The notes beneath the pieces were generated by a model. That model had not been told where the DNA came from. It did no database searches and saw only the letters and a program-made list of their open reading frames with translations. A DNA stretch of 64,000 nucleotides from Myxococcus hansupus (lineage in GTDB: Bacteria > Myxococcota > Myxococcia > Myxococcales > Myxococcaceae). How positions within the stretch are numbered: position 1 is the stretch's first letter; every line of letters begins with the position of its first letter. Where the stretch lies: NCBI RefSeq assembly GCF_000280925.3, contig NZ_CP012109.1:6344501-6408500 (forward strand). Direction: 5' to 3'. This document shows positions 10,747 to 32,289 of this stretch, one piece after another. A program made the translations under genes and the position numbers.

Positions 10747-11199
10747 TCAGCGCCGCTTCTTCCTCAACCGAAGAAGACGAGTGCGTCGTTCGAGCAAGGA
10801 TTGACGCTCCTGTTCGCGAAGCGCTTCGGGATCATCACCATGCGCTCGAAGCATGCGATCCATTTCTCTATCCACCGCCCGTACGAATCGCGCCTCCGCC
10901 TCCTCGGTAAACCCGAACGGGAACGTTCGTGGCAGGAGCAGAGAAGGGTGTCCTAAGAACCGGAGTTCGTCCGCGATGGGCTCTAGCAGGACTCTCGCGC
11001 CTTCAATCGCCACCCACAGCGCCTGCACCGAGTCCACGCCCACCGCATCCGCCTTGAGCTTCGAGGGGCCAATGCCTACCACCTCGTACTTGCAGACATA
11101 GTTGCGTCGAGAGCGGACGGGCTTAAACCACCGGACCTCAATGTTTCCAGAGCCGTCCGCCCACTCATACTTTCTGGTTGCAACAATCACTCTTGGCAT
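10747..11199 (-). CDS. DUF6968-like protein, candidate immunity protein of the Rhs gene
   Basis: A 150-residue soluble protein starting at ATG 11199, only 8 bases after the Rhs stop, so the two are one transcript. The N-terminal half reads MPRVIVATRKYEWADGSGN, with YVCKYEVVGIGP and VQALWVAIEGARVLLEPI after it, resembling the DUF6968 family as I remember it. The C-terminal half is a charged helix rich in Arg and Glu. A small gene directly downstream of a polymorphic Rhs tip is the usual place for the matching immunity protein. The role is inferred from position. Confidence 0.6.
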   Translation of the reverse strand: MPRVIVATRKYEWADGSGNIEVRWFKPVRSRRNYVCKYEVVGIGPSKLKADAVGVDSVQALWVAIEGARVLLEPIADELRFLGHPSLLLPRTFPFGFTEEAEARFVRAVDREMDRMLRAHGDDPEALREQERQSLLERRTRLLRLRKKRR

Positions 11200-11207
11200 G
11201 AAGGCCC

Positions 11208-14200: not shown

Positions 14201-16673
14201 AGCCCTGCAACTCGGTGTTGAAGACGATGCGCGAGCCGGCCCATGGGCCCGGGTACGTCGTGGCGAAGACCGCCGACGAGGCGCCCGTCCCAGGCGAGAT
14301 GCGCTCATAACGGATGCGCGTGCCGTCGGGGTTGACCAACTCGTACTCGGTGAAGTCGCTTGAGGACCGCCAGAGGAACCTCTCGTAGTCGCTGGTCATG
14401 CCGACGCCGAACTGCCGGCGCGTCAGGTCCAGCGAACGGTAGGTGCGCTCCACGCGCAGGGGGATGAGGTCCGCGACGGAGAGGTCCACTTCGCGGAAAA
14501 GAAACTGGCCGGAGGAGAGTTGGACGGGGTCTCCGCCCGTCAGGCTGCCGGGGCTGCCAGCGGAGCCGCCACCACAGTCGCCACCACCGCCCGCCCCTCC
14601 CCCACCAAGGCCACAGCACTCGGTGTTGCAGCCACCGCCCACGGGAGGCGGCGGCGCGTCCGGGTTCGTGAACCCCGCGCCGACGAAGCCATACAGGGCC
14701 ACCCCGTCATCGGGAATCACCTGGCGCCCGTCCGCGCTGACACTGCCCAAGCCGTAGGCATGCCAGCCGCTGCCATTGGCGTCGTAGTTCCAGAAGTTGG
14801 CGCGCGCCCCGGGCAGTTCGCCCCGGTAGTTGGGATAGTACAGCTTCGCGCCGCTGAAGCCCGGCGTCAGGCCCTCGAAGCGCGCATCCCCCGGCTGGAG
14901 CGTGAAGTACAGCGGCATGTCCAGATTGGGCAGCGGGAAGGGAGTCTGGTTGATGGGCAGCGGAGTGATGTTGATTTCGGTGAGCAGGTTGCCCTCGCGG
15001 TCGCGCACCACCGTGCCCGGAGGCAGCCGCAGCTCCAGTCCGGGGATGGCGGGCGTCGTTACCGTGACATCCTCCGTCGTAGGGCTGGGAATGGAGACGG
15101 TACCCTGCGGATCCAACCGGGGCATCCACACCGTGTGGCCAAGGGGATTGGTGACGCCGTCCTTCACGTCCACGTGCATGAAGAAGAGGCCGTAGCGGAC
15201 GTCGCCGTGATTGGCCGTCTGGCCGTTGACCTCCAGCGTCTGGCCGCCCTGATTGAGGCCCTCCACGAGGAAGCGTCCCTTCGCGTCCGTCACCGTGGCC
15301 ACGCCATGCACCACGATGCGGACACCCGCCAGCGGCTGGCCATTGAGGCGCAGCACGCGCCCAGAGAGGGCGGTGATACCCGGCGCCGCAGTCAGCGGTT
15401 CCACCGCCTCCACCTGGGGCTCGCTCGAACGCCAGTTCCCCGTGAAGTGCTCCGGCCCCGGCAGCCAAGTCTCCCCATCATCGAAGAAGGGACGCTCGGG
15501 CGCGAGCCACTCATAACGCCCATCCGGCAGTCGCCGTTCCGTGGCCCGCAGGGAGGCCACGGGTTGGGCCTTCGCCTGCGCGCGGCTCGACCTCGGCCGG
15601 GGGAGGCGCGCGTCCGGGCGTGCCTCTCCCGGAGCCAGGCTCGCGGTGGTGAAGCCCACCGTGGTGAGCGGCAGCTCCAGGCCGCCCTCGCCCTTCAGGC
15701 CCTGCGCGTAGAGCGTGTACGCCGTCGCAGGCAGGAGCGACTTCGTGGGAAGGAAGAAGAGCAGCCGTCCGCTCTCCGCGAGCGTGTGACGGCCCGCCAC
15801 CGAGCCCACCGGTCCCATCAGGCTGACGGTGCTCCCGCTGGCCTCGGACACGGGCTGGCTCAGGCGCACGGCCAGCAGGGTATTCACGGGCACCGAGATG
15901 GCCCGGTCCGCGGGCAGAGAGCCCGCCACCGCGAGCGCAGCGTTCGGCTTGGGCAGTCGCTCCAGTTCGGCTGCGTCCACCCGGAGGAACGTCTCCCGCG
16001 CCGGGTCGAAGAGCTCCGCGGTGGGTGTCGCGCCCGGCGCATCCCCGCCCCACAACAGCACCCGGCCATCCGGCAGCAACACGGCCGTGTGGCCTGCGCG
16101 GGCCACCTGCATGCGGGAAGGTAGCCGCGTCACCATGAGCGTGCGCGGGTCCATGAGTTCAGCGGTGTCGCTGTCACGCGCGTCGGATGTCTCGCCACCT
16201 GTGATGAGTACCCGCCCATCCGTCAGCACCGTGGCCGTGTGCCGGGCACGCGGCTCCAGCCGGAGCGCTTCCTCGTCCGCGAAAGCGCGACGCTCCAGCG
16301 AGAACCACTCGGAGGTCGCGACTAGGCGCCCAGAGGCGTCCCGGCCTCCCGTCACCAGGATCCGGCCATCCGGGAGCACCGTCGCGGTCGCGTGGGAGCG
16401 CGCGTGCCGGAGGCCCGGAATCAGCGGCTCCAGGGCCCCATCTACGCCCTGGATTACGGAGTCGCGCGAGGAGGTCTCGCCGCCCAGCAGCAGCCAGCGC
16501 CCGTCCGACAGGCGCGCCGCGCCGCGACCTTCTCGTTGAGGGGACCGGTCCACGGTCAGCGGCCGCACGAGTGCGTCCGGCACCACCGCGAAGGGAGCTT
16601 CTTCCGCGCAGCCACCCATCACGCCCGTCAGGGCGAAGCAGGCGGCCGCGAACACACGTCTGGCTCGATGCAT
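11208..16673 (-). CDS. Rhs/YD-repeat lipoprotein with kelch repeats and a cysteine-rich C-terminal tip
   Basis: A 1821-residue exported protein. ATG 16673 gives a lipoprotein-like signal (RRVFAAACFALTGVMGGC) after GGAAAGA; ATG 16712, overlapping the upstream stop, is an alternative. Domains in order: kelch-like repeats to about residue 290 (DGRILVTGGRD, DGRVLITGGET), Ig-like segment, carboxypeptidase-regulatory-like fold near 430-490 (GQPLAGVRIVVHG), Gly/Cys linker, DUF6531 segment near 718 (GDPVQLSSGQFLFREVDL), YD repeats (RYTYNTSNYMETVVDAEDR), and the Rhs core near 1560-1640 ending FRARYYDPDMSRFLQPES. The last 150 residues start with a Gly/Ala-rich hydrophobic segment and end in a cysteine-rich tip (QCLDAC, FCDK, ICHA, CNNWCYNYFGN). 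Rhs shells usually deliver a C-terminal toxin in contact-dependent competition. No known catalytic motif is visible in this tip. Confidence 0.8.
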   Translation of the reverse strand: MHRARRVFAAACFALTGVMGGCAEEAPFAVVPDALVRPLTVDRSPQREGRGAARLSDGRWLLLGGETSSRDSVIQGVDGALEPLIPGLRHARSHATATVLPDGRILVTGGRDASGRLVATSEWFSLERRAFADEEALRLEPRARHTATVLTDGRVLITGGETSDARDSDTAELMDPRTLMVTRLPSRMQVARAGHTAVLLPDGRVLLWGGDAPGATPTAELFDPARETFLRVDAAELERLPKPNAALAVAGSLPADRAISVPVNTLLAVRLSQPVSEASGSTVSLMGPVGSVAGRHTLAESGRLLFFLPTKSLLPATAYTLYAQGLKGEGGLELPLTTVGFTTASLAPGEARPDARLPRPRSSRAQAKAQPVASLRATERRLPDGRYEWLAPERPFFDDGETWLPGPEHFTGNWRSSEPQVEAVEPLTAAPGITALSGRVLRLNGQPLAGVRIVVHGVATVTDAKGRFLVEGLNQGGQTLEVNGQTANHGDVRYGLFFMHVDVKDGVTNPLGHTVWMPRLDPQGTVSIPSPTTEDVTVTTPAIPGLELRLPPGTVVRDREGNLLTEINITPLPINQTPFPLPNLDMPLYFTLQPGDARFEGLTPGFSGAKLYYPNYRGELPGARANFWNYDANGSGWHAYGLGSVSADGRQVIPDDGVALYGFVGAGFTNPDAPPPPVGGGCNTECCGLGGGGAGGGGDCGGGSAGSPGSLTGGDPVQLSSGQFLFREVDLSVADLIPLRVERTYRSLDLTRRQFGVGMTSDYERFLWRSSSDFTEYELVNPDGTRIRYERISPGTGASSAVFATTYPGPWAGSRIVFNTELQGWDLSFRDGRRWTFNHAHRLERMTDRNGNVVTLTRQNGNSGPITRITGPSGRYVEFTNGTGTQVGLVLQAKDHAGRIVTYAYDPQGRLTHVTDATGAVRRYTYNTSNYMETVVDAEDRLVVQNEYGTKGRISKQTLSDGSTYEFTYVMSMISQCLPNGPCNVREGDQVNVADIKDRSGQTRRVTFYSGYIIYDAYPLGTPQEQVTAFELAPSNGRRTAKIDPQGRRTEFEHDAHGNLTKVTRLAGTPQAFSLEYTYTADNQVATFKDGLGHITRYHYNSQGSLNRLEDATGRNVEYSYDSHGRVRTMRAGTEEPITLTYEGADLVAVTDGAGRTTEFLRDALGRAVARRGPGGQVDRYEYDAHDRLTRHTNALGHVTVFTYDKTGRFTRVRDPRGKETLYSYNALGLLAERMDPLGRTEAYTYDSAGRAKNFQDRKGQVSGWAYDSLGRLVLKGFGATPATPEDYTSTISYEYDTVGRLSRIEDSLGPVTTFTYDVLNRPLQQVSSNGTIDSTYDVAGRLTSMGVSGQAQSTYAYDAAGRLTSIAQDGRTVSFTYDAAGRRTSVTLPGGASQHYSYSDGRLKRIEYRQGTTFLGDLTYTFDLNGDLVSVGGTYARTGLPDAVSGMTYDAASQLTSWKGRTLAHDANGNLESDGLRTYTWDARGNLTRVSDSLASLAEFAYEPAGRRMRKSVAGVTTDYLYSGTNIIQEQRGGSTTRLLTGLGMDEVFSRTTSTGSRDYFTDVLGSTVALVDATGALTAEYTYAPYGATAHTGDAVGNTQAFIGREDDGTGLYYFRARYYDPDMSRFLQPESMATDPEWVRAQVMAGLSAPVYGYALNNPLGFVDPDGNEAIISGISIGVGAGGGSTAGVGGAIGAGGGAAAVGIAGVLGFGVGYGICTLTGNPYCNPFTWFPRDTPVKPVAEPVCREGDGDDELSKDGRKPLSQCLDACAASRRSGFPHAWRRFCDKISDIQLRMICHANENSSQSACNNWCYNYFGN

Positions 16674-16711
16674 GGTCTTTCCGGGTTGAAATAAGGAGGA
16701 ATGGAGATTCA

Positions 16712-19700
16712 TCACTGGCCCCCGACCTGTGAGGGCGCGAAAGGAGCGCTCTGGGTCTGCACCCGCAGGGAGAGCTGCCCGGTGCTGGCCAGGTACGGGT
16801 CCACCGTGATGGCATGGAGGCCTGTCGTCGTCGGGGTGAAGTCGACCGTGTAGCCCGAGGAAGAGCCGAGCGTCCGGGTGGCGAGCTGGGTGCCATCGGG
16901 CCTGAGGACGCGCACCAACGTGTTGCTGGCGAAGGTGTTGCCCGCGAGCACCAACGTCAGGTTGGAGCCGACGCTCGCATCGAAGGTGTAGAAGCCATCC
17001 TGGCCCACGCGCGTGGTGCTGAAGGTGAGCGCGGAGCCGTCCACCGTGAGGACTCCGCCCAGCGACGTGGACAGCAGCAGGCCCACCTCCGCCGTCGCCA
17101 AGCCCGAGGGGTTTACCGTCACGAAGTACGTGCCCGTCACGGGTAGTGCCGGCAGGTCGCACTCGCCCGGCGCCGTGAAGTTGCCGCAGTTGACCAGCGA
17201 AGTGCCGTCCGGCTTGAGAATGGAGATGGCGACGTTGCCTGACGGGGAAATGGCGACGCTCGTCACGCCCAGGCCCAACCGGTCTCCGGCCGTGCCGCTG
17301 AAGGCGTAGCGGCCCTTCTGTCCCGCCCCAGCGACACCGTCGTCGCCGCGCTGTCCGGGACGCCCGCACTGCCGTTGACCTCCTCCACCAGTTGGAGCGT
17401 CATCTGCCCGGTGCTGGTCAGGTACGGGTCCACCGTGATGGCGTGGAGGCCCGTCGTCGTCGGGGTGAAGTCGACCGTGTAGCCCGAGGAGGAGCCGAGG
17501 GTTTGGGTGGTGAGCTGGGTGCCATCGGGCCTGAGGACGCGCACCAACGTGTTGCTGGCGAAGGTGTTGCCCGCGAGCACCAACGTCAGGTTGGAGCCGA
17601 CGCTCGCATCGAAGGTGTAGAAGCCATCCTGGCCCACGCGCGTGGTGCTGAAGGTGAGCGCGGAGCCGTCCACCGTGAGGACTCCGCCCAGCGACGTGGA
17701 CAGCAGCAGGCCCACCTCCGCCGTCGCCAGGCCCGAGGGGTTCACCGTCACGAAGTACGTGCCCGTCACGGGTAGTGCCGGCAGGTCGCACTCGCCCGGC
17801 GCCGTGAAGTTGCCGCAGTTGACCAGCGAAGTGCCGTCCGGCTTGAGAATGGAGATGGCGACGTTGCCTGACGGGGAAATGGCGACGCTCGTCACGCCCA
17901 GGCCCAACCGGTCTCCGGCCGTGCCGCTGAAGGCGTAGCGGCCCTTCTGTCCCGCCCCCAGCGACACCGTCGTCGCCGCGCTGTCCGGGACGCCCGCACT
18001 GCCGTTGACCTCCTCCACCAGTTGGAGCGTCATCTGCCCGGTGCTGGTCAGGTACGGGTCCACCGTGATGGCGTGGAGGCCCGTCGTCGTCGGGGTGAAG
18101 TCGACCGTGTAGCCCGAGGAGGAGCCGAGGGTTTGGGTGGTGAGCTGGGTGCCATCGGGCCTGAGGACGCGCACCAACGTGTTGCTGGCGAAGGTGTTGC
18201 CCGCGAGCACCAACGTCAGGTTGGAGCCGACGCTCGCATCGAAGGTGTAGAAGCCATCCTGGCCCACGCGCGTGGTGCTGAAGGTGAGCGCGGAGCCGTC
18301 CACCGTGAGGACTCCGCCCAGCGACGTGGACAGCAGCAGGCCCACCTCCGCCGTCGCCAGGCCCGAGGGGTTCACCGTCACGAAGTACGTGCCCGTCACG
18401 GGTAGTGCCGGCAGGTCGCACTCGCCCGGCGCCGTGAAGTTGCCGCAGTTGACCAGCGAAGTGCCGTCCGGCTTGAGGATGGAGATGACGACGTTGCCTG
18501 ACGGGGAGGTGGCGACGCTCGTCACGCCCAGGCCCAGCCGCTCCCCGGCTGTGCCGGCGAAGTCATAGAAGCCGTTCTGTCCCGCTTGGCCGACGAAGGT
18601 CGTCTCCGCCCCGTCCTTCTCAAGCACCTCCCGCGCGGCACGCACCAGGGCCAGTGAAACGCTGAACCCGGTCGTCGTGCCGGTGGCCTGCACCACCGCA
18701 GTGTAGACGGCGTCCCGGCTCGCAACGGGGAGGTCGTGGACACCTCCCGCTGCCGACAGGGGGAAGCTGCCAATCTGCGCACCCATCTGGTCATGGACCT
18801 GCAGCGATGCCGAACTCGCGCCGCCCAGCACCATCGACGACGATACGACGCTCACCTGCTCGCCTCGCGACACCGGGAAGCTCAGCACCGCCCGGTGCGA
18901 GGCATCCGCCAGCGAGACCGCGCTGGGAGGCCCGCCCACCTCGGCATAGAGCAGGGTGTCCGCGGCGCCGGGCACGAGGCTTGAAGGGAGCACCAGAAAG
19001 TCCGAACCGCTGGTCACCCGTCCCGAGGGTGTGGCGACCTTCACCCGCCCCGTCTCGCCCAGGTTCGAGACCTTCACCTCCAACTGCGAGGGGCTGGCGG
19101 AGACCACGAAGGCCTGGATGTCGCCGAAGAAGACGCGGTTCAAAAGACGGTCGGGGTGGAAGTTGCTCCCCATGAGCGTCACCGTCGTGCCCACTGGCCC
19201 GCCCACCGGCGAGAAGCCGGTGAGAACCGGGCCGGGCACGGCGGCGGTGACGACGTAGTCCTCGGCGCTGGCGACCGTCGTGCTCCCCACCGTGACGCTG
19301 ACCGGCCCCGTGGTGGCACCCGCCGGGGTGGTGACCACCAACCGCTGCGTGCTCGCCGCAGTCACCACGGCATCCACGCCGTTGAAGCGCACCGTATTGC
19401 CCGCGGGCGTCGGGTTGAACCCCGAGCCCGTCAAGGTCAACTCCGCGCCGGGTGGCCCGGAGTTGGGCGTGAAGTCGAAGATGCCTATGTCCGTAGCCGT
19501 TAAGCGCTTTATTTCGAGAATGTTTCCACCTTCGTCATAGACGTACTGGGCACTAGCACCCGTCCCGTCGTAGACGCCCACCAACCGCCGAGCTCCGTCA
19601 TACGCGTATTGAATGGGTGGGCCTGCATCAGCGCTTCCAGTGGCACGGGCCACAGTACCCATCGGCGCTTGTTCCAGAGCAGAGCCCTCACCGCCACATG

Positions 19701-19767
19701 CGACGAGGAGAAGAACACATGCCAAGACGTACATGCCAAGGCATTGTCCTATCGAAGGTATCTTCAC
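16712..19767 (-). CDS. YD-repeat/IPT-TIG lipoprotein with 630-bp internal repeats, frameshifted
   Basis: A predicted outer-surface lipoprotein, about 1018 residues if intact. GTG 19767 follows GGAG and starts a signal with lipobox LLVAC. Two YD repeats (IQYAYDGARRLVGVYDG, AQYVYDEGGNI) are followed by two IPT/TIG Ig-like domains (TPNSGPPGAELTLTG, SPVGGPVGTTVTLMG) and then near-identical 210-residue repeats (FTFDASVGSN-type core, DFTPTTTGLHAITVDPY). In the last repeat a run of four C at 17326-17329 replaces the five C at 17955-17959 in the copy before. This throws the frame, so translation would stop at 17263, whereas restoring one C carries it to 16712. Start and stop overlap the neighbours (GTGA upstream, TGATG downstream), indicating one operon with the peroxidase and the Rhs gene. 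Confidence 0.65.
16750..18560 (-). repeat. Three near-identical 630-bp tandem coding repeats
   Basis: The same sequence recurs with period 630 (for example CTGCCCGGTGCTGGTCAGG at 17404 and 18034, and with one change at 16775). Copies 2 and 3 are almost identical. The spacing 16775 to 17404 is 629 because one C is missing. The third copy diverges beyond about 18540. Such similarity implies recent duplication or gene conversion and makes copy number unstable. Confidence 0.85.
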
Positions 19768-20885
19768 CGGGAACTCCTATTCAGAAACGTTGAAGGCGCT
19801 GAAGCCGCCGCGGCAGGCACCGTGGCAAACGTTGAGCTCGTCATTGAATGAAGGAAGGCGACCAAGTCTTCTCTCTCGGAAGGGGTCAAGTCGCCCACCC
19901 GCAGCCCGCCTTCCGTGCGGTAGTAGAGTTCTCTCTCCACGGCCTCAGCCAGCGTGGGAATGCTACCGTCGTGCATGTACGGTGCAGTCAACGCCACGTT
20001 ACGCAGTGAGGGCGTACGAAAACGGCCGATATCATCCGGCCGGAGCGTCACGATGAAACGTCCCAGGGCTGCCACCTCGCTGCGTGTGGAAACTGCGGCC
20101 CGCCGCGCCTCCGGTGACATGCGGGCTGTAGACCGGGCTATAGCCGCAAGCTGAGAGAGCGAGGCCGGCGTAGCCACTTCACCGGGATGGAAGTCCCCAT
20201 CCGAATGAGCCTCCTCCACAAAAGGATGGCAACGGCTGCATGCCGCACGGCCAGAGAAAAGGGCAAGGCCGCGCCGCTCGGAAGCACTGAGTGCGTCGGC
20301 TTGCCCTGCCAAGTGACGCTCCAATCGAGAAGGGCCTCCGACGAGGCTGCGAACATATGCCGCTAGGGCACGGGCTACCGTCGCTGGCGTTATGCCCTCG
20401 CCCGGGAATGCGCGTGCAAAACCGGGCGAATGACGTGCGCGCACGATGGGTAGAACCTGCTCCATGTCAGAAAAGCCGTGCTCCACCGGCGTGGTGAGAG
20501 GGTCCAGGACGAGTTCCTCAAGGGTGGCGCGCCGCCCGTCCCAGAAAAGCGCCCCCTGCTTCTCCAGTCCTAAAAGACTCGGAACGTTGCGCGTACCCAC
20601 CCGCCCAAACACCCCTCTCGGGATGGCTTCGCCACTAGAAAAAGCAACTTCGGGTCGATGGCAGGTGACACACGCCACTTTCCCGTCAGCACTCAGGGCC
20701 TTGTCGAAAAAGAGAGCCCTGCCCAGTTCCACGCTGGCACGTGCACCGGCACTTAAAACTGGCTCACTAGCCACCCCCGCCGTCGGCAATACAAATAAAA
20801 TCCACGCCAACCGGCACGTGCATGCCAACCACTTCAAACAAGAAAAAGAATGTGCACGGACCCAGAAACTCAGCAACAGTCCCAT
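19764..20885 (-). CDS. Di-haem cytochrome c peroxidase family protein (CcpA/MauG-like)
   Basis: A predicted exported di-haem protein that reduces hydrogen peroxide, or oxidises another protein as MauG does. Two haem-binding motifs are present: CVTCH near residue 70 and CSRCH near 216. Other family segments are LGRALFFDKALSADGKVAC, GTRNVPSLLGL, FRTPSLRNVALTAPYMHDG and DLVAFLHSM. An N-terminal hydrophobic stretch ending PTAGVASEP fits a signal peptide. ATG 20885 is my choice; ATG 20924 and TTG 20990 are alternatives, as no start has a strong ribosome site. The stop overlaps the GTG of the YD-repeat lipoprotein, so the enzyme is coexpressed with surface Rhs-type proteins, which is an unusual association. 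Confidence 0.75.
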   Translation of the reverse strand: MGLLLSFWVRAHSFSCLKWLACTCRLAWILFVLPTAGVASEPVLSAGARASVELGRALFFDKALSADGKVACVTCHRPEVAFSSGEAIPRGVFGRVGTRNVPSLLGLEKQGALFWDGRRATLEELVLDPLTTPVEHGFSDMEQVLPIVRARHSPGFARAFPGEGITPATVARALAAYVRSLVGGPSRLERHLAGQADALSASERRGLALFSGRAACSRCHPFVEEAHSDGDFHPGEVATPASLSQLAAIARSTARMSPEARRAAVSTRSEVAALGRFIVTLRPDDIGRFRTPSLRNVALTAPYMHDGSIPTLAEAVERELYYRTEGGLRVGDLTPSEREDLVAFLHSMTSSTFATVPAAAASAPSTFLNRSSR

Positions 20886-20990
20886 TTCCCCTACACCCCA
20901 AGCCAATGGCGCGCGCCTCTCCATCTTTGAGCACTCAAACAAACGCTTCCCCTCCACTCTGGGACTGCCTACGAAGGGCGCCACCAACAA

Positions 20991-22183
20991 ACCATCTCCA
21001 AGTGGTCCTCAAACGTCCATACACCAGGGCTCTGACAGGAGGTGCCAAGGAGTCCACCCTAGAGTCTCGACAACCCAAAAAGAGGGAGCCGGAGCATCTA
21101 GACTGTGGCGGGCTAACTGTGTCCCAGGCGCAAGAATGGAGCGCAACGACGTGACGAACGAAGCCCCATAGATTTTCCCTACATGCAAACGGGCCCTGCG
21201 GCGATTAGTGGTCCATTTGAGGCGGCGCTTCTGTGGATGAGTCTTTCAACACCGCCGCCTTGCACTCCTTCGTACCGTAGCCATGTACGACTCATTCGCG
21301 CTCCTCTGGGGATGCGTCAAAGCCAGCACCTCCAGGGGTTGCTCCTGTCTAAAGCCAAATAAAAGTCCCTCACTTCCGAAAGGGATGTGTCACACCAGCT
21401 TCATTCCTTCATCACGATTTCATCACGAGTGAGCTACTCAAACGCACCGACCTGACCAGGGCCAGCGTCTAATCCCGCATCAGGACGCTGCTCGTCATCG
21501 GCAACTCGCAGAGGATGAGCCTACCCAGCGCTTGCCGATACAGCCCGTCTGAACCGCGAAGCTGTCGATGACCACCCCCATCCCGAACTCCTGACGGGAG
21601 TGCGGCATGAGTGCCATCACCCACGCCAATTTTATCAATAGGTTGCGCGCCAGAAGCCGTCCTCAAGCTGGACGCCCATCCGACTTCCTAGACGCGCGCG
21701 GTAGTCGCCGTTCCGCCTGAGGCGGGAATGCGGAGGGGGCGGAACTACCAAAGAGGCTACGCTGCCTCGAGGTTCGCCCCCGTCAACTCCGTCCACTCCC
21801 CCTCGGAGCAGTATTTACTCGATGGGGACATGCACCAAGCGGAGCTGGGCGCCCTCTCCCGCCGTCGCGGCTTCCTCGCCCCTCGGTCTCGCAAGTATGC
21901 GGTTCCGGCCCAAGCAAGAGCACGCAACCAACTCCTGCACCTGCTCAATGCGCTGAGGTCCGAATGGAGAAACGCCGCCAGTCCCTCTCAGGCACTTTGC
22001 CCTAGACAAGAGGCCAATCATGTGCAGCCAAGCCATCTTGCGGTGGGCGGCCGCCCCTACCACGCGGGTCTGACATGAACGAAATGACAGTGAATCCAGC
22101 AGGTTGACGCGTATTTCCGCCCTGGTTACCTAAGAGGGGAACCCATCTGTCCGCGCCAATCGGGCCGGAAAAGGAAGCCAGCA
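20991..22183. other. 1.2-kb region without a supported gene
   Basis: No frame here has consistent codon bias, a ribosome site and a protein-like translation together. A 13-bp palindrome CCGCCTGAGGCGG lies near 21714. The region probably contains decayed sequence and the promoters of the peroxidase operon and of the DUF2188 gene. Confidence 0.4.
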
Positions 22184-22414
22184 ATGACGAAGAAGAATGT
22201 CCATACCGTCCCGTCCAAGGGTGGCTCGGGGTGGGACAATAAGGTCGGTGGTGAAGTAGTTAGCCACCACCAAAAGAAGGAGACTGCCGTCGAGAAGGGC
22301 CGGTCCATTGCACGGGCGAATGAGGCTGAACACGTCATTCACGACAAGGGGGGCAAGATTCAGCAGAGCAACAGCTATGGGAATGACCCCAACCCACCGA
22401 AGGACCAGCGGTAG
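22184..22414 (+). CDS. DUF2188 family protein
   Basis: A 76-residue protein starting at ATG 22184. The N-terminal KNVHTVPSKGGSGWDNKVGG, helix VEKGRSIARANEAEHVIHD and tail GGKIQQSNSYGNDPNPP match the DUF2188 pattern in order and length. The family is widespread and small, with no established function. It converges on the XseA-like gene with a strong hairpin between them. Confidence 0.8.
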   Translation: MTKKNVHTVPSKGGSGWDNKVGGEVVSHHQKKETAVEKGRSIARANEAEHVIHDKGGKIQQSNSYGNDPNPPKDQR

Positions 22415-22441
22415 CTGAGAGCCTTGCTCCACAGCCCCTTG

Positions 22442-22471
22442 CGCTGCTCGCGCTCGTTACCGCGAGCAGCG
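22442..22471. terminator. Bidirectional hairpin between convergent genes
   Basis: CGCTGCTCGCG and CGCGAGCAGCG pair perfectly over 11 bp with an 8-nt loop. It lies between two convergent genes (22414 and 22497) where a shared terminator is expected. No T-run is present on either side. Confidence 0.6.
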
Positions 22472-22496
22472 GCGCTCCAAAGCTCGGCTAATGCGT

Positions 22497-23792
22497 CTAT
22501 TCGAAGGCGCCAGCCGACTCTGCAGAAGGGGCACGCCGCTTTCGCTTCTGCGTTTCCTTCTTAGCGGGCTCGACGGCAGCAGGCACAGGGGGAGGAGCAT
22601 CCACCGCCGGCACACCAGGGCTTGGCACAAACTGCGCCTCGGGCCGAACAAGGCCGTCCCATCGCGCAGCTCCCTTCCACCCCACAACGAAGGCAAGACC
22701 GAGCGCGAGGACTCCAACGAGTCCCCAGTAGGTCTTCCAGGCCACCCGCTTCGCAGTCCCAAGCCATCTGGACGTCCGCCGCACCTCGTCATCGGACACC
22801 GCTGCCGAGGGCACCTGCGCGGGCAGCGCCCGCACGCGTAGAGCCTCTGCAGGGCCTGGATTGCGGGAGGCCCCACCAGAAGGCAACACGACTACGGGAC
22901 GCGGGGCAGTGGGAACCTGGGCCGTGGCAGGCAGCGGCGTGACAATACGAACCGGCGTGGACTGCTCCGACAGCGGCTGGACTCGCCGGAAGAGTCGAGC
23001 GACGAGGTGCGCCGCAACGGAGGGAGTCCGTGCCCGATAGGCAGCGAAGCGCTGTGCCTCCACCCTCGTCCTAGCGTGCCCCACGGCCACAATACACGGC
23101 TTCGTCAGCTGGCAAAGGGCTCGAGCGACCACCGGCGAGTTGAAGGGCTGCAAGTCAATCCGCGAGCCCCCTCCGCGGGCTAGGACGACCACTTCCGCAC
23201 CGCCATCCTGCGCCCGGCGGAGACCATCCGCGATGGACTCCTCGTCGTAGAGCCCTACCGGAATGAGCTCCACCTGAACGCGGATGCCGATGGTGTCTTC
23301 GAGCTGACCGCTGAAGTCCGCCACCGCTTCGCTCCCCTCGGACGTGACGAGCGCCACGCGAGTGAAGGGCCTGGTGACCTTCGGCGGCGGGGACAGGCGT
23401 CCCGCTGCGATAGCGTCGAGCTCGGCCTGATGTCGGGCATGCCGACTTGAGGGGCCGCGGTCCGTCCAACTCTTCGCCATGAAGCGCACGTCGATGCCGC
23501 CGCGCTCCTCATCCACGAAGGCCCTTGCACTGCCCTCGAACTCCACCATGTGCGCCAACCCAGGGAGCCAAGTGCAATCGCCCGGGAGCACCACCCAGAC
23601 GCGCTTGTCGAAGCCATAGGTGTCGGCCAGGCACACTCTACGCCCGCGGACCTCGACAACCTCCCCCACCAGAATCATCTCCCGCGACGGCAAGGCCTTC
23701 CGCGCGAGAGGCTGGACATCATCGGAGATGAGCTTGATGACCGACCGGATGGAGAAGTGTTGCGCCTTCTGCTTTCGAAGTCCCCGCTGCAT
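22497..23792 (-). CDS. Membrane-anchored homologue of exonuclease VII large subunit
   Basis: A 431-residue protein starting at ATG 23792 after GGGAGGG. Residues about 30-110 look like an OB-fold (ILVGEVVEVRGRRVCLADTY). Residues about 150-280 match the XseA catalytic region: VALVTSEGSEAVADF, VVVLARGGGSRIDLQPFNSP near 205-225, VAVGHARTRVEAQRFAAYRA and APS-like RTPSVAAHLV. Real XseA follows this core with a long coiled coil, whereas here a Pro-rich linker leads to one membrane helix near 360-385 (YWGLVGVLALGLAFVVGW) and a Lys-rich tail. No XseB-like partner is adjacent. It may be a membrane-tethered nuclease with a defence or DNA-uptake role. Housekeeping exonuclease VII is unlikely because of the architecture and the context. 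Confidence 0.65.
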   Translation of the reverse strand: MQRGLRKQKAQHFSIRSVIKLISDDVQPLARKALPSREMILVGEVVEVRGRRVCLADTYGFDKRVWVVLPGDCTWLPGLAHMVEFEGSARAFVDEERGGIDVRFMAKSWTDRGPSSRHARHQAELDAIAAGRLSPPPKVTRPFTRVALVTSEGSEAVADFSGQLEDTIGIRVQVELIPVGLYDEESIADGLRRAQDGGAEVVVLARGGGSRIDLQPFNSPVVARALCQLTKPCIVAVGHARTRVEAQRFAAYRARTPSVAAHLVARLFRRVQPLSEQSTPVRIVTPLPATAQVPTAPRPVVVLPSGGASRNPGPAEALRVRALPAQVPSAAVSDDEVRRTSRWLGTAKRVAWKTYWGLVGVLALGLAFVVGWKGAARWDGLVRPEAQFVPSPGVPAVDAPPPVPAAVEPAKKETQKRKRRAPSAESAGAFE

Positions 23793-24029
23793 GCGCCCTC
23801 CCTCACATCGGGCACCATACCCGACTTGTGGGTGGGGGTATGCCAGATAGGACTGACCTGCCGTGGCATGCGGGGTCAACAGAGACTCAGTCAAAATCCG
23901 AGTTCGTCCTAGCATTGACGAACCAAAGCCCTATTTAATCGGATTAGCCATATTGATTCCCTAATGCCATCAACAGGCCGTTGAGTATCGCCAGGGCGAG
24001 AGCCCGGCAGAGGCCGCGAGTTCATTAGC

Positions 24030-25754
24030 ATGAAGAAAAACCTCGGATTCAGTTCATACATTTCCGCCCAAAGCGCCACAGGAGTTCCTGTTCACGCCCA
24101 CAAACTTCGAGAGTTCATAGCGCGCTTTTCGTGGGAAGAAACGTTCATGAAACTAGCCATGCTAGCTGGCGCTCTCGCCAACTATCGCACCAATGGCGGA
24201 GAATACTACTCGCAACACGTCTACAACGAACTAACCAAGCTGCGCTTCTCGTTTCGCAAAATCGACTGGCTCATCGGAGACCATGTCCTCAGAAACAAAG
24301 AGAATCCAGTCGCACACGAGCAGGCAATTTACTTCCTTCAATCCCTGGCAATTCTATACGGGAAAACCATCGGCCCCACCCCATCCGACCTAGAGGTCGG
24401 CCAACTCTTGCTCGCGGCCAATGATCATCTGACCTCATGGAAAGAAGAAGACGCGCCACCGCTATCTCGCTCTGATCGGCTCACGGCGGAATTCTGTCAC
24501 CTCGCGCGCTTCAACACGCACCACGACCCACTCAGAGGCATCGTCCGAACGGCCCTGATTTTTGAACACCCCCCTAAACAGGGGCTTCTCTCAGACCCTG
24601 CCAAATGGACGGACCTACAAGAACGCGCCTTTGGCACGTCCTTCACTGAATGGCTCGAAATATTCCTACTCCCGCTCTTCTATTTCTCGCAGACCTGGGG
24701 AACCCATAAAGATGGGAAATGGATAGCGCCAATTATCACGCCCCAAACATGGTATGCCAAGACGGCGCTTCAGCCCACATGGACAGACCACCACTTCAGC
24801 TCCCTCACGACGACTCGGGTCGAAGCTCGTTCGCACATTGAGGCGTCACTTCGTAGCGATGGGCTCCCACATGCCCCAACTTTCTTCATCAGAACGCCGT
24901 TCATAAAGCTCAACTCTGGCAACCTAGTAGCTGCATCTCCCTGGGCGATACGCGAGCAGCTTCGTGGTGGAATTTGGATGCGGCACAGGGAAGCAACGCG
25001 CTCCTTTTCAGACGACATCAGGACGTGGACAAGCGCTTTTGGACAAACATTCGAAGCCGCATGCCGAAACATCGCCCTTGAGACCATTGGGCAATCAAAC
25101 CCGACGACCAAGCTCATACTATCAACTGCCATCGGCTCAAGCGACGAGCTTGAAGACATCGTCACCATCGAATCCGACGGAATCGTTCTGTTTTCCGTCA
25201 AGTCACGCCTGGTGCTGGAATCGGTAGCTCGCCAAGCAGTGTCGCGCCGAAATCTACTTAACTGGTATGAGGAGTTCCTATTTGGTCCCGGCAACAAGAA
25301 AAAGAAACATCAACCTGGGGCACTTCGCCTCCTCGACGCAAGAATTCACGCAATCAGATCCGGGCAGACGGAAATTAGAGAGACCCTCGCCCCGATCTTC
25401 CCCGTCCTGGTCACCTTTGACGACCTATGCGAGAACGGCGCCCTCGACAGGTGGATCGCAAAAAAATACTCTGAACACGACATGCCACGCCCTCCCAACA
25501 CTCACCCTCCAGTCCTCCTGACAATCAATGACTTCGAGGCACTGATGTCGCTATCATCAAGCGGCCATTTAATCACATCGATCCTGAGTCGAAAACATAG
25601 CGAAGAATGGCGCGACGCTACTATGAGCGCCCTCCTGCTGAGCTACAGCCCTAACGGAAGTCTATTGTGTGCAAAGTCCTTCCTGAAGCGATTCAGCGAG
25701 ATTGACGAGCGAGCATTTTCTCGGTTCTTTCCAGACGCCGCGCATTCGCGGTAG
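24030..25754 (+). CDS. Hypothetical protein with a possible PD-(D/E)xK-like core, low GC
   Basis: A 574-residue protein of unknown family starting at ATG 24030. It is visibly more AT-rich than its neighbours, a sign of horizontal transfer. The N-terminal half is helical (FMKLAMLAGALANYRTN). Around residues 375-395 a strand-turn-strand (IVTIESDGIVLFSVKSR) resembles nuclease cores such as NERD, but with Ser where the acidic residue of E-x-K is expected. It is transcribed divergently from the XseA-like gene across a short AT-rich gap at 23793-24029. Its setting among defence-type genes suggests a defence function, but this is inference. Confidence 0.5.
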   Translation: MKKNLGFSSYISAQSATGVPVHAHKLREFIARFSWEETFMKLAMLAGALANYRTNGGEYYSQHVYNELTKLRFSFRKIDWLIGDHVLRNKENPVAHEQAIYFLQSLAILYGKTIGPTPSDLEVGQLLLAANDHLTSWKEEDAPPLSRSDRLTAEFCHLARFNTHHDPLRGIVRTALIFEHPPKQGLLSDPAKWTDLQERAFGTSFTEWLEIFLLPLFYFSQTWGTHKDGKWIAPIITPQTWYAKTALQPTWTDHHFSSLTTTRVEARSHIEASLRSDGLPHAPTFFIRTPFIKLNSGNLVAASPWAIREQLRGGIWMRHREATRSFSDDIRTWTSAFGQTFEAACRNIALETIGQSNPTTKLILSTAIGSSDELEDIVTIESDGIVLFSVKSRLVLESVARQAVSRRNLLNWYEEFLFGPGNKKKKHQPGALRLLDARIHAIRSGQTEIRETLAPIFPVLVTFDDLCENGALDRWIAKKYSEHDMPRPPNTHPPVLLTINDFEALMSLSSSGHLITSILSRKHSEEWRDATMSALLLSYSPNGSLLCAKSFLKRFSEIDERAFSRFFPDAAHSR

Positions 25755-26215: not shown

Positions 26216-27086
26216 ATGGGGCCCTCCGTTCGCGGTAGGCGTTGGGAGCGCGGCCGGAGGCAATACCCCAAGGGAGAAGGCTTCAGCGGTGAACGCGCCT
26301 GCTCTTCGAGTAGGTTCGCGACCCGCAGTCCCCGGGCCCGAGGCGGAAGTCCTCAACCATTCACGTTCTGGCTGGCCACCGGGGTATGCTTGCGCACTGC
26401 TCAGCAAGCTAAGTGCTCCAGCCCCCCGGGGAACACCCGGACCTCTACTTGACGTTTCCGCCCCACTATGGACTCAACGCCCCTCGAGAAGCCTGACGTG
26501 ATTCAGACGGCCGCTGACCTGCTCAATGAGCTCTTCAAGAAGGAACAGGAGATGCTCGCTAGCCACCAGATCTCGCATGCACCGACGATTGGAGAAATGT
26601 ACGAGGGGCTCACACAGAAAGGACTCAAGCAAAGCCTTCCCACTTTCTTGAAAGTGGTTTCCGGGTTCGCCCGAGATGCGGCCGGGGACCTCAGCGGACA
26701 GCTTGACTGCATGGTGGTTGTGGGCGAGGGCGAGCAGGTACCTAACACTCATCGTTGGATTTATCCCATCGAACAAGTCGTCGCAGTGGTTGAGGTGAAA
26801 AAGAACTTCACGCGCACGGACCTGATCGAGGGGGGCGAGGCACTGGGGAAGCTCGCATGGGCCATGCCCGCCAAAACTGGAGTGCGACGAATTACAGTGG
26901 AGCGTGCGTTTGAGACGATCTCAGGATATGCATTCCCGGACAACAAGAACAGCATCCCTTCCGACTTGAGAACAATCTACCATTTCCTCGTCGGGGAAGC
27001 TGTCAGTCCAGTGCGGATTCTCCTGGGATTCCACGGGTACAAGACAGAGAACGGCCTCCGCAAGGCTCTGGCAGAAGTCATGGCTA

Positions 27087-28165
27087 CGACGGTGATCACG
27101 GCGGTTGAGGCGGGTAGCCGCAGAACGCGAACCAAGCCGCTGCGTCCTGTGGCCGCACGGTTGCGAGTGCCTCTCGCATCGCTTCACGGAGGGCCACGTG
27201 TGTACGGGCGCCGATGGCCCGCATGCGCGTCTTTACCTTCAACCAGCACGACTCGATGGGGTTGAGCTCAGGGCTGTAGGGAGGCAGGAAGAGAAGACTC
27301 GCCTTGCGGCTGCGAATGAGCTGCTCGACCACTGGCCGGTGATGGACGCTGAGGTTGTCCATGACCACCACGTCGTGCGGCTTGAGGATGGGCAGAAGCC
27401 CCTCACGGACATATGTTTCGAAGCGGTCGCTGTTGGTAGCGCCTTCAAAAGTCAGTACCGGCCCCACTCCTCGAAGCGTCAGGTCCCCTATCATCGTGAC
27501 GAGTTGGCGACGACCCAGGGGCACGTAGCCGCGAGCGCGCTGCCCTCGTCGAGCACGCCCATACCGTCGTGTCATTGTGAGGGTCGCGGCAGTCTCGTCG
27601 ATGAAGTGGAGGTGCGCAGGCTTCAGTTGGGCGGCCGTAGCCAAATACCGCCTGCGGGCTCGGCGATTCTTCGCCAGCCGCCGCTCGGAGGCGAGAAGCG
27701 ACTTTTTTTGCGCGTATATCCCAATCGGCGGAAGGCACGTCCCATGGTGGCGCGGCTTACGCACACGCCCGTTTGCTTGACGTATGCATCCGCGATTTCC
27801 TGGGTCGTACTATCGGGCGCGGAATCCAGCAGCCGTTTCACCCGGCCCAGTTGCGAATCCGGGATGCGGAAGTAGGGACGAGGGCCTGGGCGCTTTGGCT
27901 CAAGCGAGCCGGTACGCTTCCAGCGGCCAATGAGGCGATCAACCGTCGCGACCCCTACTCGAAACCTCCTGGCGAGTTCTCCCCAGGACTCCGCTCGCGT
28001 CAGGTACGCGTCGAGTATCCGCTGCCTCAAGTCCATTGAAAGTGGTGCGCCCATGTCCTCAATCTATGGGCTCTGGCGCGCTCGCCCTTGCTCGTCACCC
28101 CTCGGACTGGCCCACCAAGGGCCACTTCCTGCGCTTCCCTCAATCAACGTCCGTGATCACCGTCG
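27087..28165 (-). mobile_element. IS630-family insertion sequence, complete
   Basis: The ends are inverted repeats beginning CGACGGTGATCACGG, identical at 21 of 22 positions. The element is flanked by TA on both sides (27085-27086 and 28166-28167), the target duplication of the IS630/Tc1 group. Length is 1079 bp and it carries one transposase read with a frameshift. The exact ends and the intact interrupted gene indicate a recent insertion. Confidence 0.9.
27096..28054 (-). CDS. IS630-family transposase (DDE), expressed by frameshift
   Basis: The upstream frame, from ATG 28054 or 28036, encodes helix-turn-helix domains (DLRQRILDAYL, ELARRFRVGVATVDRLIGRW). The downstream frame, to 27096, encodes the DDE catalytic domain: HFIDET, VVMDNLSVHH and NPIESCW, with 34 residues between the last D and E. 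The frames meet at seven A on the coding strand (27713-27719 on the plus strand) in the context A AAA AAA G, a classic -1 slippery site. A -1 shift there produces one fused transposase, as in many IS630 elements. Confidence 0.85.
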
Positions 28166-29253: not shown

Positions 29254-32211
29254 CTACTTCGCCGCCTGCAGGATTGCCTGGAGCGACACCGCGGCCTGCT
29301 CCGTCTCCGTCTTCATCTGTTCAAAGAGCTGGTGCTCCTCCGGAGTTACGTCACGGATGTCCTCGAGCTGGCTCCACATTTCCCTCATGAACCGTGTCAT
29401 ATTAGAGCGAACTCTCTGAGCGAGCGACTCGCCAATCTCACTGACATGATCATCCATGCTCGTTGCGAACTGGTTCCAGCTCCTTTCGAATGCTTGAGCC
29501 ACGGCTTCTTCCAGCTCGGACGGGGTGTCGGCGCTGTCGGTGAACAAGCCAACGACCCACGAAACAGTCGTGCCAATCAGGGCCCCCAGCCCGACCAGAT
29601 GCCCCATAAAAGCTGCAATGCCGAAAGATGCAATGCCGGCGACCCGAGCCAACTGGCGCCCTTGATGCTCGGGGACTGATAGCTCCATCTGCGTCTTCCA
29701 AGCAGAAAGCGTCTGCGAGAGGCTCTGCATCTGTTGAGTTTGGGCCGCCCTCCCCGCCTCCGAACGCAGAGCCAAGAGGCTCTTCCGCATGTGCGATTCG
29801 ACCCGCGTCAGCTTACCTTCTAACTTCTCCTGAACCTGCTCTGCAACCTTGCGCCTACGGCTCATCATTGAGGCTTTCAGCGCGTCCACGCCCGCAGAAG
29901 GCCTGGGCAGCCCCTGTTCGACGGGCAAGGCTTCGACCCACTTGCGGACCTCGTCCCTAAGCTCCGTCCTCTCCGCATTGATGAGCCGCGCACCATGTGC
30001 GCGTACATACTGGATGGCCTCGTCGCCGTCCGCGACGATTTCCTTTCGCTGCTCCTCACAACGCTGGAGTGCTTCGCGGAGCTTAATGCGCTCCGGTTCC
30101 TTTGCCTGCCGGGATGCGATTAACATGGCAACTTCATCACTGGCGAGTTGCAGTCGCTCGAAGACCCGATAGAGGCGGCGCAGCCCAATGGCCTCCGTGT
30201 TCCAAAGGCTCTCCCAGAGCGAGTCATAGAATACATTGAATGCAGGCGGACTCGCTTTCCCCTGTTGCCGGGGAACAGTGACCGCATTGGCGCTCAGGAA
30301 GAACGGCGGATGCGTCAGCGTGTCCCAGACACCAAATCGTTCGAGAGCCGACTGCACCATCATTTTCGCTTCCCGGTTTTCCTCCGCATTTAGCTGATCT
30401 GCCTTGTTGCAGACGACGAATACGGCGCACTGCCGCTTCTGAGCGTCCAAAAGCAGCTCTTTCGTCTGCTTGTCCAAGGCGAAGCCGCCAGCCCGAACCG
30501 TAGAGACGTCCAGGACAAGCACGAGCGCATGCGCGGTCTGGAGAACCTCTGCCGTGGAAGACCAGATCCGACCATTTGGGTCATCGAACCCAGGGATGTC
30601 CACGTACATGACACCGAGGTCGAGAACCTCGTCTCTCAAATCCACACGGATGTCGATAACCTTCTTCTCGTTGTCCGGGTTGTGCTGTTGGTCCGCATAG
30701 GGGGCAACCATGTCCTGCGTTACCGGACCATCGCCCAGTCGCGGGCGCTCTCCCTCAATATTCACAGTGAGGGACTCCCTCTCTCCTGGTTTAATAATGA
30801 TGGGAACCGCAGTGGTGATAGTTCGTCGCACCGGGCAGATGGCCCGCCCCACCAAGGCGTTGAGGAGCGTGCTCTTTCCCGCTCGCGATTTTCCCGTGAT
30901 GACGACCCGGTAGGGCTCCTGATGAAGGACCTTAAGAAGGTCCTTTCCCTGTTCCGCCACATTGTACCAGCTGAGCTTCTGAGCAATCGTGCTCAGCCGT
31001 TCTACCGAGAGCCGCGCACGCCCATGCAGACGCGCGTAGTCGCCTGCCGAGAGCTGGGAGCGCATAGAGGGCGCGCCGACCTCCAACTCTGCGTTCCACG
31101 AGGGCTGAGTGTCAGCGGGTGCGGCCGGCGACGCCAAGCGCTTCCGTCCTCTCTTTCCTCTTGGCGTGAACGTCTCGGTCCAAGCACCGCGTTCATCCAG
31201 GTTGGCCCTGGAGTCAGGACCGAGCGCTCGGAAGTTACCTTCCTTGAGTGTTGCAGCCCGAGGCCAAATGCTCAGCGTGGCGTCAGATTTCTCTATATCG
31301 ATCTGCCCCGCGACATAACCATGAATTCGCTGGATTCGGCTCTCCTCGCCAAACTCCTCCAGCCCGAAGAGGGATGGCCCCTGGATAGAGCGGCGAGGTG
31401 TGCCTCCCCCACGTCGTGTGCTTTGCGAAGCACCAAGGTGCATGTGTCCGAACAAATGAAGAGTGAAGTTGTCACTCGCCAGGATCTCCTGCTCAAACGA
31501 TGAAACCGCATTGGGATGGAGCCAGTTCTGGGGATGATGAGTCAGCAGAATCGTCGCATCGTGTCGGGCCAACCAATCCGACGAGTCACCGCCGCAAGCG
31601 CCCTGGAATTGGCGAGCGTCGAGCGCTAGCTTTCCTTCGAAGTTCTCAGCCGTCAGTTGGAGGAACGCAGAGTTCAGGCCCACCACCCCCAAGCTCACGT
31701 CGCCCTTCTCCAGGGTGAACGAAAAGTCCCCTGGCAGCAGCCCGGACGTCAGGGGCTGTCCATGAAGCCGAGACGAACGCTGCCAGTCGCTGAACGGTTT
31801 GAAGGCGGTCGCGACCACTTGCCTGTACTCGCTGATTTCGTCCTTCCAGAACTCATCGGAAATATCCGAATCGTCCCACCAAGCCCCCAGCGCTTTGACC
31901 GCAGCCTTCCTGGGAGCGGGTCTCACCAAGTCGTGGTTACCTGGAACCGCGAGCAGGCGCGGACTCGATCCAAGCTCCTCAAGATGCGCCCACAACCGGT
32001 CAAGGGTCTCGTCTAACGCCTTAAACTCCTCGGCAGAGCCTCGCTGCGTGAGATCTCCGGTAAATAGGACGAGGTCCCATGGGCCCCCCACCTTCTCCTG
32101 AAGCCGAGCCAGGTCATCAAAGACCTCCGTCCTCATCCTCGGCCAGAGCCACTTCTGCCCCCCCATCCCCTGGTGGAAGTCGGTGAGGTGCAGCCAGCGA
32201 ATCGCGGTCAT
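29254..32211 (-). CDS. Metallophosphoesterase fused to a dynamin-like GTPase
   Basis: A 985-residue fusion starting at ATG 32211 after GGGGGA. Residues about 5-280 are a calcineurin-like phosphoesterase: HLTDFHQG, FTGDLTQRG, VPGNHD near 90, LLTHHP and LFGHMH near 253, giving the complete metal-binding set. After a linker comes a dynamin-type GTPase: P-loop GKSRAGKSTLLNALVG near 436-451, switch TITTAVPI, DIPGFDDP near 538 and NKAD near 601. A long helical region follows, with a hydrophobic hairpin near 857-892 (GIAAFMGHLVGLGALIG) and a C-terminal helix. Bacterial dynamins remodel or patch membranes, and some act in anti-phage defence. Fusion to a phosphoesterase suggests a GTPase membrane sensor coupled to nucleotide, nucleic-acid or phospholipid cleavage. 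Confidence 0.85.
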   Translation of the reverse strand: MTAIRWLHLTDFHQGMGGQKWLWPRMRTEVFDDLARLQEKVGGPWDLVLFTGDLTQRGSAEEFKALDETLDRLWAHLEELGSSPRLLAVPGNHDLVRPAPRKAAVKALGAWWDDSDISDEFWKDEISEYRQVVATAFKPFSDWQRSSRLHGQPLTSGLLPGDFSFTLEKGDVSLGVVGLNSAFLQLTAENFEGKLALDARQFQGACGGDSSDWLARHDATILLTHHPQNWLHPNAVSSFEQEILASDNFTLHLFGHMHLGASQSTRRGGGTPRRSIQGPSLFGLEEFGEESRIQRIHGYVAGQIDIEKSDATLSIWPRAATLKEGNFRALGPDSRANLDERGAWTETFTPRGKRGRKRLASPAAPADTQPSWNAELEVGAPSMRSQLSAGDYARLHGRARLSVERLSTIAQKLSWYNVAEQGKDLLKVLHQEPYRVVITGKSRAGKSTLLNALVGRAICPVRRTITTAVPIIIKPGERESLTVNIEGERPRLGDGPVTQDMVAPYADQQHNPDNEKKVIDIRVDLRDEVLDLGVMYVDIPGFDDPNGRIWSSTAEVLQTAHALVLVLDVSTVRAGGFALDKQTKELLLDAQKRQCAVFVVCNKADQLNAEENREAKMMVQSALERFGVWDTLTHPPFFLSANAVTVPRQQGKASPPAFNVFYDSLWESLWNTEAIGLRRLYRVFERLQLASDEVAMLIASRQAKEPERIKLREALQRCEEQRKEIVADGDEAIQYVRAHGARLINAERTELRDEVRKWVEALPVEQGLPRPSAGVDALKASMMSRRRKVAEQVQEKLEGKLTRVESHMRKSLLALRSEAGRAAQTQQMQSLSQTLSAWKTQMELSVPEHQGRQLARVAGIASFGIAAFMGHLVGLGALIGTTVSWVVGLFTDSADTPSELEEAVAQAFERSWNQFATSMDDHVSEIGESLAQRVRSNMTRFMREMWSQLEDIRDVTPEEHQLFEQMKTETEQAAVSLQAILQAAK

Positions 32212-32289
32212 TCGTCCCCCGGAGGTGTAGCCGGAGCGCTCTAGTACCAGACGTCTCGCTGCGTAGAAACTGGTGACTCGATGTCCCAT

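Follow-up and report, generated by a model that had tools for sequence, protein, structure and literature searches.

A predicted membrane-anchored exonuclease VII derivative carried as cargo by a lineage of Myxococcus prophages

We analyzed 64,000 nucleotides of Myxococcus hansupus DNA (hereafter the window, positions 6344501-6408500 of a genome that forms one contig of 9,490,432 bases), in which the gene at 22497-23792 encodes P0001, a protein with the catalytic fold of XseA, the large subunit of exonuclease VII (ExoVII), and a predicted membrane anchor. A preliminary description had correctly set the gene at these coordinates; it lies on the minus strand. The features that bear on the gene are as follows.

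510-4217, plus strand: a pair of prophage-type genes (one of them weakly tail-like) with 88-89% identity to tailed-prophage genes of genome G009
7827-10214, plus strand: an amidoligase gene and two gamma-glutamylcyclotransferase genes, a marker block ahead of the cargo zone
22184-22414, plus strand: small DUF2188 protein (Pfam; padloc PDC-S16), the tail-to-tail neighbor
22497-23792, minus strand: membrane-anchored XseA-core gene, product P0001; open frame with ATG at 23792, 431 codons and a stop
22500-22664, minus strand: tail (last 55 residues), Pro/Ala-rich with a KKETQKRKRR cluster in the sequence
22665-22733, minus strand: predicted transmembrane helix, residues 354-376; Kyte-Doolittle peak 1.87, a helix in the model at pLDDT 59-66
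22734-22967, minus strand: Pro/Ala-rich linker, residues 276-353, fast-evolving, standing where XseA has its coiled coil
22992-23372, minus strand: ExoVII catalytic-fold region, residues 141-267, from Pfam, alignments, and the model compared with 8txr
23463-23684, minus strand: possible OB-fold region, residues 37-110, collinear inside the hhalign alignment of residues 37-267
23808-23824, minus strand: near-palindrome TCGGGTATGGTGCCCGA, lying 16-32 bp before the start codon
24030-25754, plus strand: divergent neighbor of 574 aa with no family match
63002-64000, no strand assigned: part of the right copy of a 1.7-kb integrase repeat, 78.3 kb from the left copy and bounding the unit

A longer in-frame ATG lies upstream at 23915. 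We preferred the start at 23792, which GAGGGAGGGCGC precedes, because this ATG and its spacer recur in four relatives of clade A, the clade of P0001. The ribosome-binding site GAGGGAGGG precedes the ATG at 23792 and is conserved before the same ATG in these four relatives. The near-palindrome, which by eye is similar in four clade A relatives and whose pattern matches nowhere else in the window, is a possible repressor operator. Full-length orthologues of P0001 are encoded in genomes G011 (78% identity) and G018 (75%), and these orthologues, together with the purifying selection described below, rule out a chance open reading frame or a sequencing artefact.

Three lines of comparison place the middle of P0001 in the XseA fold and bear out the XseA core named in the preliminary description. 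Pfam assigned Exonuc_VII_L to residues 141-267 (E 7.9e-24), matching profile positions 12-141 of 315 only, and P0001 scored 89.9 bits against the NCBIfam xseA equivalog, below the cut-off of 180. In a profile-profile comparison of eight family members with five ordinary XseA rows, hhalign aligned P0001 residues 37-267 with E. coli XseA residues 28-263 (probability 99.6, E 1.3e-23). An AlphaFold2 model whose input alignment was shallow, at 5 rows (mean pLDDT 55.3, pTM 0.43), was confident only at approximately residues 121-270, and in VIA-align its catalytic domain matched 8txr, which is the H238A mutant of E. coli ExoVII according to the structure title, with Z 20.3 and rmsd 2.2 over 151 residues. 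The next VIA-align entries were other Rossmann-like folds with Z 11.0 or less, which we did not accept as relatives of P0001. The Foldseek TM-score of the model to 8txr was 0.33 when normalised to the query, the good match being that of the catalytic domain alone.

The claimed OB-fold, expected in the N-terminal region, fared less evenly. The region is collinear with XseA within the hhalign alignment, but the N-terminal 125 residues aligned alone reached a probability of 6.4, compared to 0.2 for a catalytic-part control, Pfam made no OB-fold match in P0001, and model confidence was low over that region. In the clade C relative L067, the match to the phage exonuclease profile phrog_9454 begins at residue 33. 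Position and collinearity are thus suggestive of an OB-fold in the strand-rich region before the catalytic fold, short of proof.

Beyond the catalytic fold, P0001 departs from XseA. The XseB-binding coiled coil is not present in P0001, where the Pfam profile match ends at position 141 of 315 and the linker is disordered; as the preliminary description had proposed, a linker takes its place, rich in Pro, Ala, Val, and Arg and mostly with pLDDT below 50 (28-47 in blocks across residues 281-350). The single transmembrane helix that it had placed near the C-terminus coincides with the hydropathy peak at residues 354-376. A hydrophobic helix follows the core in all seven full-length members scanned, the weakest being that of G136 (1.64), and the predicted C-terminal transmembrane helix is kept across clades. 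In G008 and G022, a core strand just before the GH motif also exceeds the hydropathy threshold. The N-terminal domain would lie inside the cell and the tail in the periplasm. No xseB partner lies near the gene, and the sole XseB match in the genome adjoins the housekeeping xseA at 2.65 Mb. Several defining features of xseA are lacking from P0001, which rules out a plain xseA identity.

P0001 keeps the RGGGS..FN motif along with D159, R206, and H239, which correspond to D155, R205, and H238 of E. coli, while T242 stands at the position of E. coli D241. In the alignments, E. coli GHETDVTIADF reads GHARTRVEAQRF, so that the GHExD of XseA becomes GHART, and the three clade A relatives that span the site also carry Thr, as GHARTR or GHARTK. 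D155, R205, H238, and D241 reportedly emerged from work by Poleszak in 2012 as the essential residues of E. coli ExoVII, and all four are among the invariant columns of the ordinary XseA alignment. Among 31 distinct genes compared as a control, the 28 ordinary XseA genes all have Asp three positions after the His (H+3) and the 3 clade A genes have Thr. Within the family, D159, R206, and H239 are invariant in all eight aligned members, and the H+3 position is Thr in three (clade A), Asn in one (clade B, G023), and Asp in four (clades C and D). Across the GHETDVTIADF stretch, clade A has replaced every E. coli acidic residue and gained one new Glu. P0001 therefore has three of the four residues considered catalytic in XseA, the D241 equivalent being replaced by Thr, and from the alignments its clade is probably without ordinary ExoVII cleavage.

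These results divide the earlier reading of P0001 as a tethered nuclease that acts in defence. The RGGGS...FN region is there and an alignment confirmed the D, R, and H equivalents, but the catalytic set is incomplete. The XseA catalytic fold, the membrane anchor, the lost XseB-binding region, and a defence-type setting stood up, but the word nuclease is unsupported for P0001 because one of the four presumed catalytic residues is missing, as it is in the three orthologues that span the site. The preliminary description also missed the prophage cargo-zone setting and the Asp retained in divergent relatives. Outside this family, a further, distinct XseA paralogue of approximately 530 aa, which retains the catalytic Asp, occurs at three loci (L033 9117-10715, L034 9090-10688, and L035 9239-10837, from genomes G109, G110, and G107, respectively); the N-terminal extension of the L033 protein, the one scanned, is weakly HARP-like (18.6 bits, cut-off 25).

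A search of 195 genomes of the phylum at E <= 1e-24 matched 27 genomes, of which we counted as family carriers the 10 with a best match of at least 156 bits; the other 17 reached at most 102.5 bits and were read as ordinary XseA. The carriers comprise 9 of 27 Myxococcus genomes and G136, which belongs to the same taxonomic family. The frame is intact in seven (the genome studied here, G011, G018, G023, G008, G022, and G136), the alignment row for G023 beginning at a residue of our choosing. The other three carriers have only broken copies, with a frameshift in G012, an interruption in G025, and a truncation in G002, and G022 holds clade A remnants in addition to its intact gene. In G025 (L029 5292-15628), the clade A gene is broken after residue 142, and about 9.4 kb, occupied by the gene for an FG-GAP repeat protein and by others, separates it from a 3' remnant.

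Pairwise dN/dS among P0001 and its orthologues in G011 and G018 was 0.09-0.14 for core residues 1-275, 0.51-0.74 for the linker (residues 276-345), and 0.25-0.60 for the transmembrane helix and tail. By these values, the core is maintained by purifying selection despite the loss of the Asp. In a tree of the catalytic region, a single branch (SH-aLRT 93) separated the nine family rows from 30 ordinary XseA sequences, which suggests, without being strong enough to settle it, that the family stands apart from ordinary XseA. The long branches of clades B and D make the order of the clades uncertain, as well as the choice between a single and a double loss of the Asp. In phages and plasmids, XseA-type matches were only partial, with a query cover of at least 80% in 0 of 54 and 0 of 82 records, respectively. 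Scans of viral contigs with P0001 gave no match, and those with ordinary XseA found two distinct contigs. In broader genome contigs, searched by short peptide patterns only, we found one locus, in Myxococcus sp. CA023, that is 93% identical; the family may thus also occur beyond the phylum. In the literature library searched, the titles and abstract openings listed for ExoVII and XseA describe no membrane-anchored XseA-type protein.

The gene lies within a unit bounded by direct repeats 78.2-79.3 kb apart, which include integrase copies; one repeat pair of 1.7 kb, 85.6% alike, holds a tyrosine integrase. Genes at window 510-10497 have 45-95% protein identity to two elements in G009, and one of these, by PHROG, carries terminase, portal, head protease, head-tail adaptor, tape-measure, and baseplate genes. 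The window's own unit gave no match to the G009 head genes and most tail genes, and other genes, among them one for an AAA_5 ATPase with weak resemblance to MoxR, fill that part. Since these matches are missing and other genes stand in their place, the copy in the window is defective or chimeric.

The cyclotransferase marker occurs in 11 of 27 Myxococcus genomes, namely in 9/9 carriers compared to 2/18 non-carriers (Fisher 1.2e-5), and the integrase, searched at E <= 1e-40, in 10 of 27 (8/9 carriers compared to 2/18 non-carriers, Fisher 1.7e-4). The integrase was not found in the carrier G023, and the two genomes with element markers but without the XseA-like gene are G009 and G019. Gene and marker lie 8.5-12.3 kb apart in three genomes with intact clade A genes, and copies of clades A, B, and C share flanking element genes, either RDD and HEAT-repeat proteins or the marker block. 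Judged from these flanks, clades A, B, and C sit in one cargo zone. For G136 (clade D) and G002, no shared flanking element gene was found on the contigs or contig ends that hold the gene, the clade D copy being on a 5.3-kb contig with no other gene in common with the rest. Together, these findings show that in Myxococcus the gene is linked to a lineage of tailed prophages resembling Mx-alpha. It is not essential to the element, since the copies in G012, G025, and G002 are all broken, and because it sits in a prophage cargo zone, the likely beneficiary is the element itself, through superinfection exclusion or competition.

The immediate neighbors of the gene vary. The DUF2188 gene is also found beside the copies in G011 and G012, though not that of G018, making three clade A copies in all, and the slot of the 574-aa neighbor holds other genes in G011 and G018. 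An all-against-all comparison of window 11-36 kb and 11 neighborhoods revealed no constant partner besides the element genes. The neighbors of relatives include GmrSD (G011), an nSTAND1 NTPase and HNH_5 (G018), and Imm11 (G008), and 5 of 10 scanned neighbors near relatives' copies had no Pfam match. By their predicted families, the neighbors are of a defence or antagonism kind; guilt by association is nevertheless weak because the neighborhood is mixed.

Elsewhere in the window, a compact run on the minus strand at 35597-50362 contains HNH, PtuB-, PtuA-, DrmMI-, DpdE-, and DruE-like genes, with matches to models of several named defence systems. A single protein at 29254-32289 (minus strand) joins an N-terminal calcineurin-like phosphoesterase to a dynamin-type GTPase and is weakly PDC-S60/LeoBC-like, and a DUF6602 protein at 26468-27265 (plus strand) weakly resembles NucC and PD-DExK effectors and lies near a putative IS630-type transposase recognized by eye. 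From its YD repeats, likewise by eye, we assigned an RHS/YD-repeat gene to 11208-19767 (minus strand). The front part of this gene (16775-18616) contains repeated stretches of about 630 bp, 94-98% alike, and, since the frame changes across these copies, the gene has probably been rearranged or frameshifted. Tandem Repeats Finder reported no array in window 11000-24500. PF09535, which we take to be a SitI-type family and which was the only sit family searched, has 10 matches in the genome, none of them within 6.28-6.45 Mb.

Altogether, P0001 is a genuine and conserved ExoVII derivative with a predicted membrane anchor, belongs to a prophage lineage of Myxococcus, and is not XseA by membership; perhaps it works like a tethered DNA trap or nuclease. 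We tentatively favor, as one possible account among several, a role in prophage exclusion or defence through DNA binding at the inner membrane. In this account, the XseA-like catalytic-fold domain, probably preceded by an OB-fold, would face the cytoplasm; a flexible linker would connect it to a single membrane helix, beyond which a short, cationic tail rich in Pro would reach the periplasm. Such a tether would hold the DNA-binding domain away from the chromosome, at the entry site of foreign DNA. A remodelled cationic cleft, with D, R, and H kept and the acidic GHExD turned into GHARTR, might then bind incoming DNA at its ends or where it is single-stranded; the DNA would be stalled in its entry or first use, which would shut out rival phages or further copies of the element. 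Clades C and D, with the full residue set, may also cut; clade A would act more like KwaB of Kiwa, and clades C and D possibly like SNIPE. Established here are the conservation and the element linkage of the gene, its defence-type neighbors, and, in the sequence of its product, the catalytic fold, the lost residue, and a predicted membrane helix. The OB-fold, the topology, the DNA binding, and the exclusion are what we infer, and part of the proposed DNA binding would depend on an OB-fold that is not established when the region is aligned alone. A broader version of this account, which we regard as doubtful, is an undescribed Myxococcus prophage exclusion system of allelic membrane-tethered XseA cores, in which clades C and D cut, clades A and B are non-cutting DNA traps, and the alleles diversify in one cargo zone against rival phages or element copies.

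Other readings account for parts of the same evidence. It is rather unlikely, in our judgment, that P0001 is an active membrane-tethered single-strand nuclease of the SNIPE type, in which the Thr or a neighbor, for example the Glu three positions on, replaces the Asp. Clades C and D do retain the Asp, the D, R, and H equivalents are invariant in 8/8 aligned members, the core is under purifying selection, and excerpts of the SNIPE study offer a precedent (PMC13190303). In clade A, however, no acidic residue of E. coli GHETDVTIADF survives, a single new Glu stands in the stretch, and Asp occupies H+3 in 28/28 ordinary XseA, with E. coli D241 reportedly essential. The gene could instead belong to kin discrimination, its product being an immunity or accessory protein that encounters nuclease toxins, or the DNA that they target, at the inner membrane. 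The RHS-type gene at window 11208-19767 (by eye), the Imm11 gene near the G008 copy, and the SitA, T6SS, and Rhs effectors that Mx-alpha elements carry according to excerpts of PMC5562445 and PMC10047993 would suit such a role, but no constant pairing exists beyond the element genes, and the SitI1 immunity protein described in those excerpts is of the SUKH family, unlike P0001 (PMC5562445, PMC10047993). We consider this reading improbable.

A service to the prophage, in which P0001 acts at the membrane on DNA of the element itself, for example in excision, transfer, or packaging, would explain why the gene travels with the element and recalls the XseA-like exonucleases that phages carry. We give it only a slim chance: the G009 element that has head, packaging, and tail genes is without the gene, which lies in a variable cargo zone and has only broken copies in 3 of 10 carriers. 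A functionless, decaying duplicate of the host xseA is very improbable and was largely refuted by the selection test. The lost Asp, the three carriers with only broken copies, and the remnants in G022 would fit decay, but a core dN/dS of 0.09-0.14 does not, nor do the split of nine family rows from 30 ordinary XseA (SH-aLRT 93) and the predicted C-terminal transmembrane helix kept across clades.

ExoVII is regarded as a housekeeping repair enzyme. If the exclusion or defence account is true, the ExoVII fold, minus its XseB interface and one catalytic Asp, has been recruited for a role in exclusion or defence, and the idea behind SNIPE, in which membrane location separates incoming DNA from self, would extend to another nuclease fold, unrelated to the first. 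Whether such proteins cut DNA or merely hold it is directly testable, since natural alleles that keep the Asp and alleles that lack it exist.

Compared to XseA (PF02601; 8txr), P0001 shares the catalytic fold, RGGGS..FN, the equivalents of D155/R205/H238, and possibly the OB-fold; unlike XseA, it has no coiled coil or XseB site, has gained a transmembrane anchor, and carries Thr in place of the H+3 Asp. SNIPE, as described in excerpts of its report, is a membrane-bound protein of the inner membrane with DUF4041 and a GIY-YIG nuclease that cuts phage DNA during injection, and SNIPE without its membrane helix attacks the chromosome (PMC13190303). Set against those excerpts, both proteins would pair a single-pass anchor with a cytoplasmic DNA-processing domain, the orientation of P0001 being predicted, and both have a poorly conserved anchor-side region. 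On the other hand, their nuclease folds are unrelated, the anchor is C-terminal in P0001 and N-terminal in SNIPE, and the active site of SNIPE is intact and its defence demonstrated, whereas P0001 has an incomplete residue set and a proposed role in defence. Pfam, searched with E up to 1, found neither DUF4041 nor GIY-YIG in P0001.

KwaB of Kiwa binds injecting DNA without cutting it, according to excerpts of PMC12904381, and P0001 may be like it in action, holding injecting DNA uncut at the membrane. Kiwa, as far as these excerpts go, consists of two proteins, KwaA and KwaB, in contrast to the one found here, and we liken them by mode of action, not sequence. At the level of the element, the portions of the literature that describe Mx-alpha of M. 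xanthus give it a length of about 80 kb, sometimes several copies, and a highly polymorphic nature (PMC6070905, PMC5562445, PMC10047993, PMC5030687). Like Mx-alpha (PMC6070905, PMC5562445, PMC5030687), the unit in the window is about 80 kb, with tandem direct-repeat organization and polymorphic cargo. Mx-alpha particles are reported in these portions to be tail-less, whereas the G009 element has tail genes. By its organization and cargo, and not by sequence alignment with DK1622 or DK101, the unit that carries the gene for P0001 closely resembles Mx-alpha.
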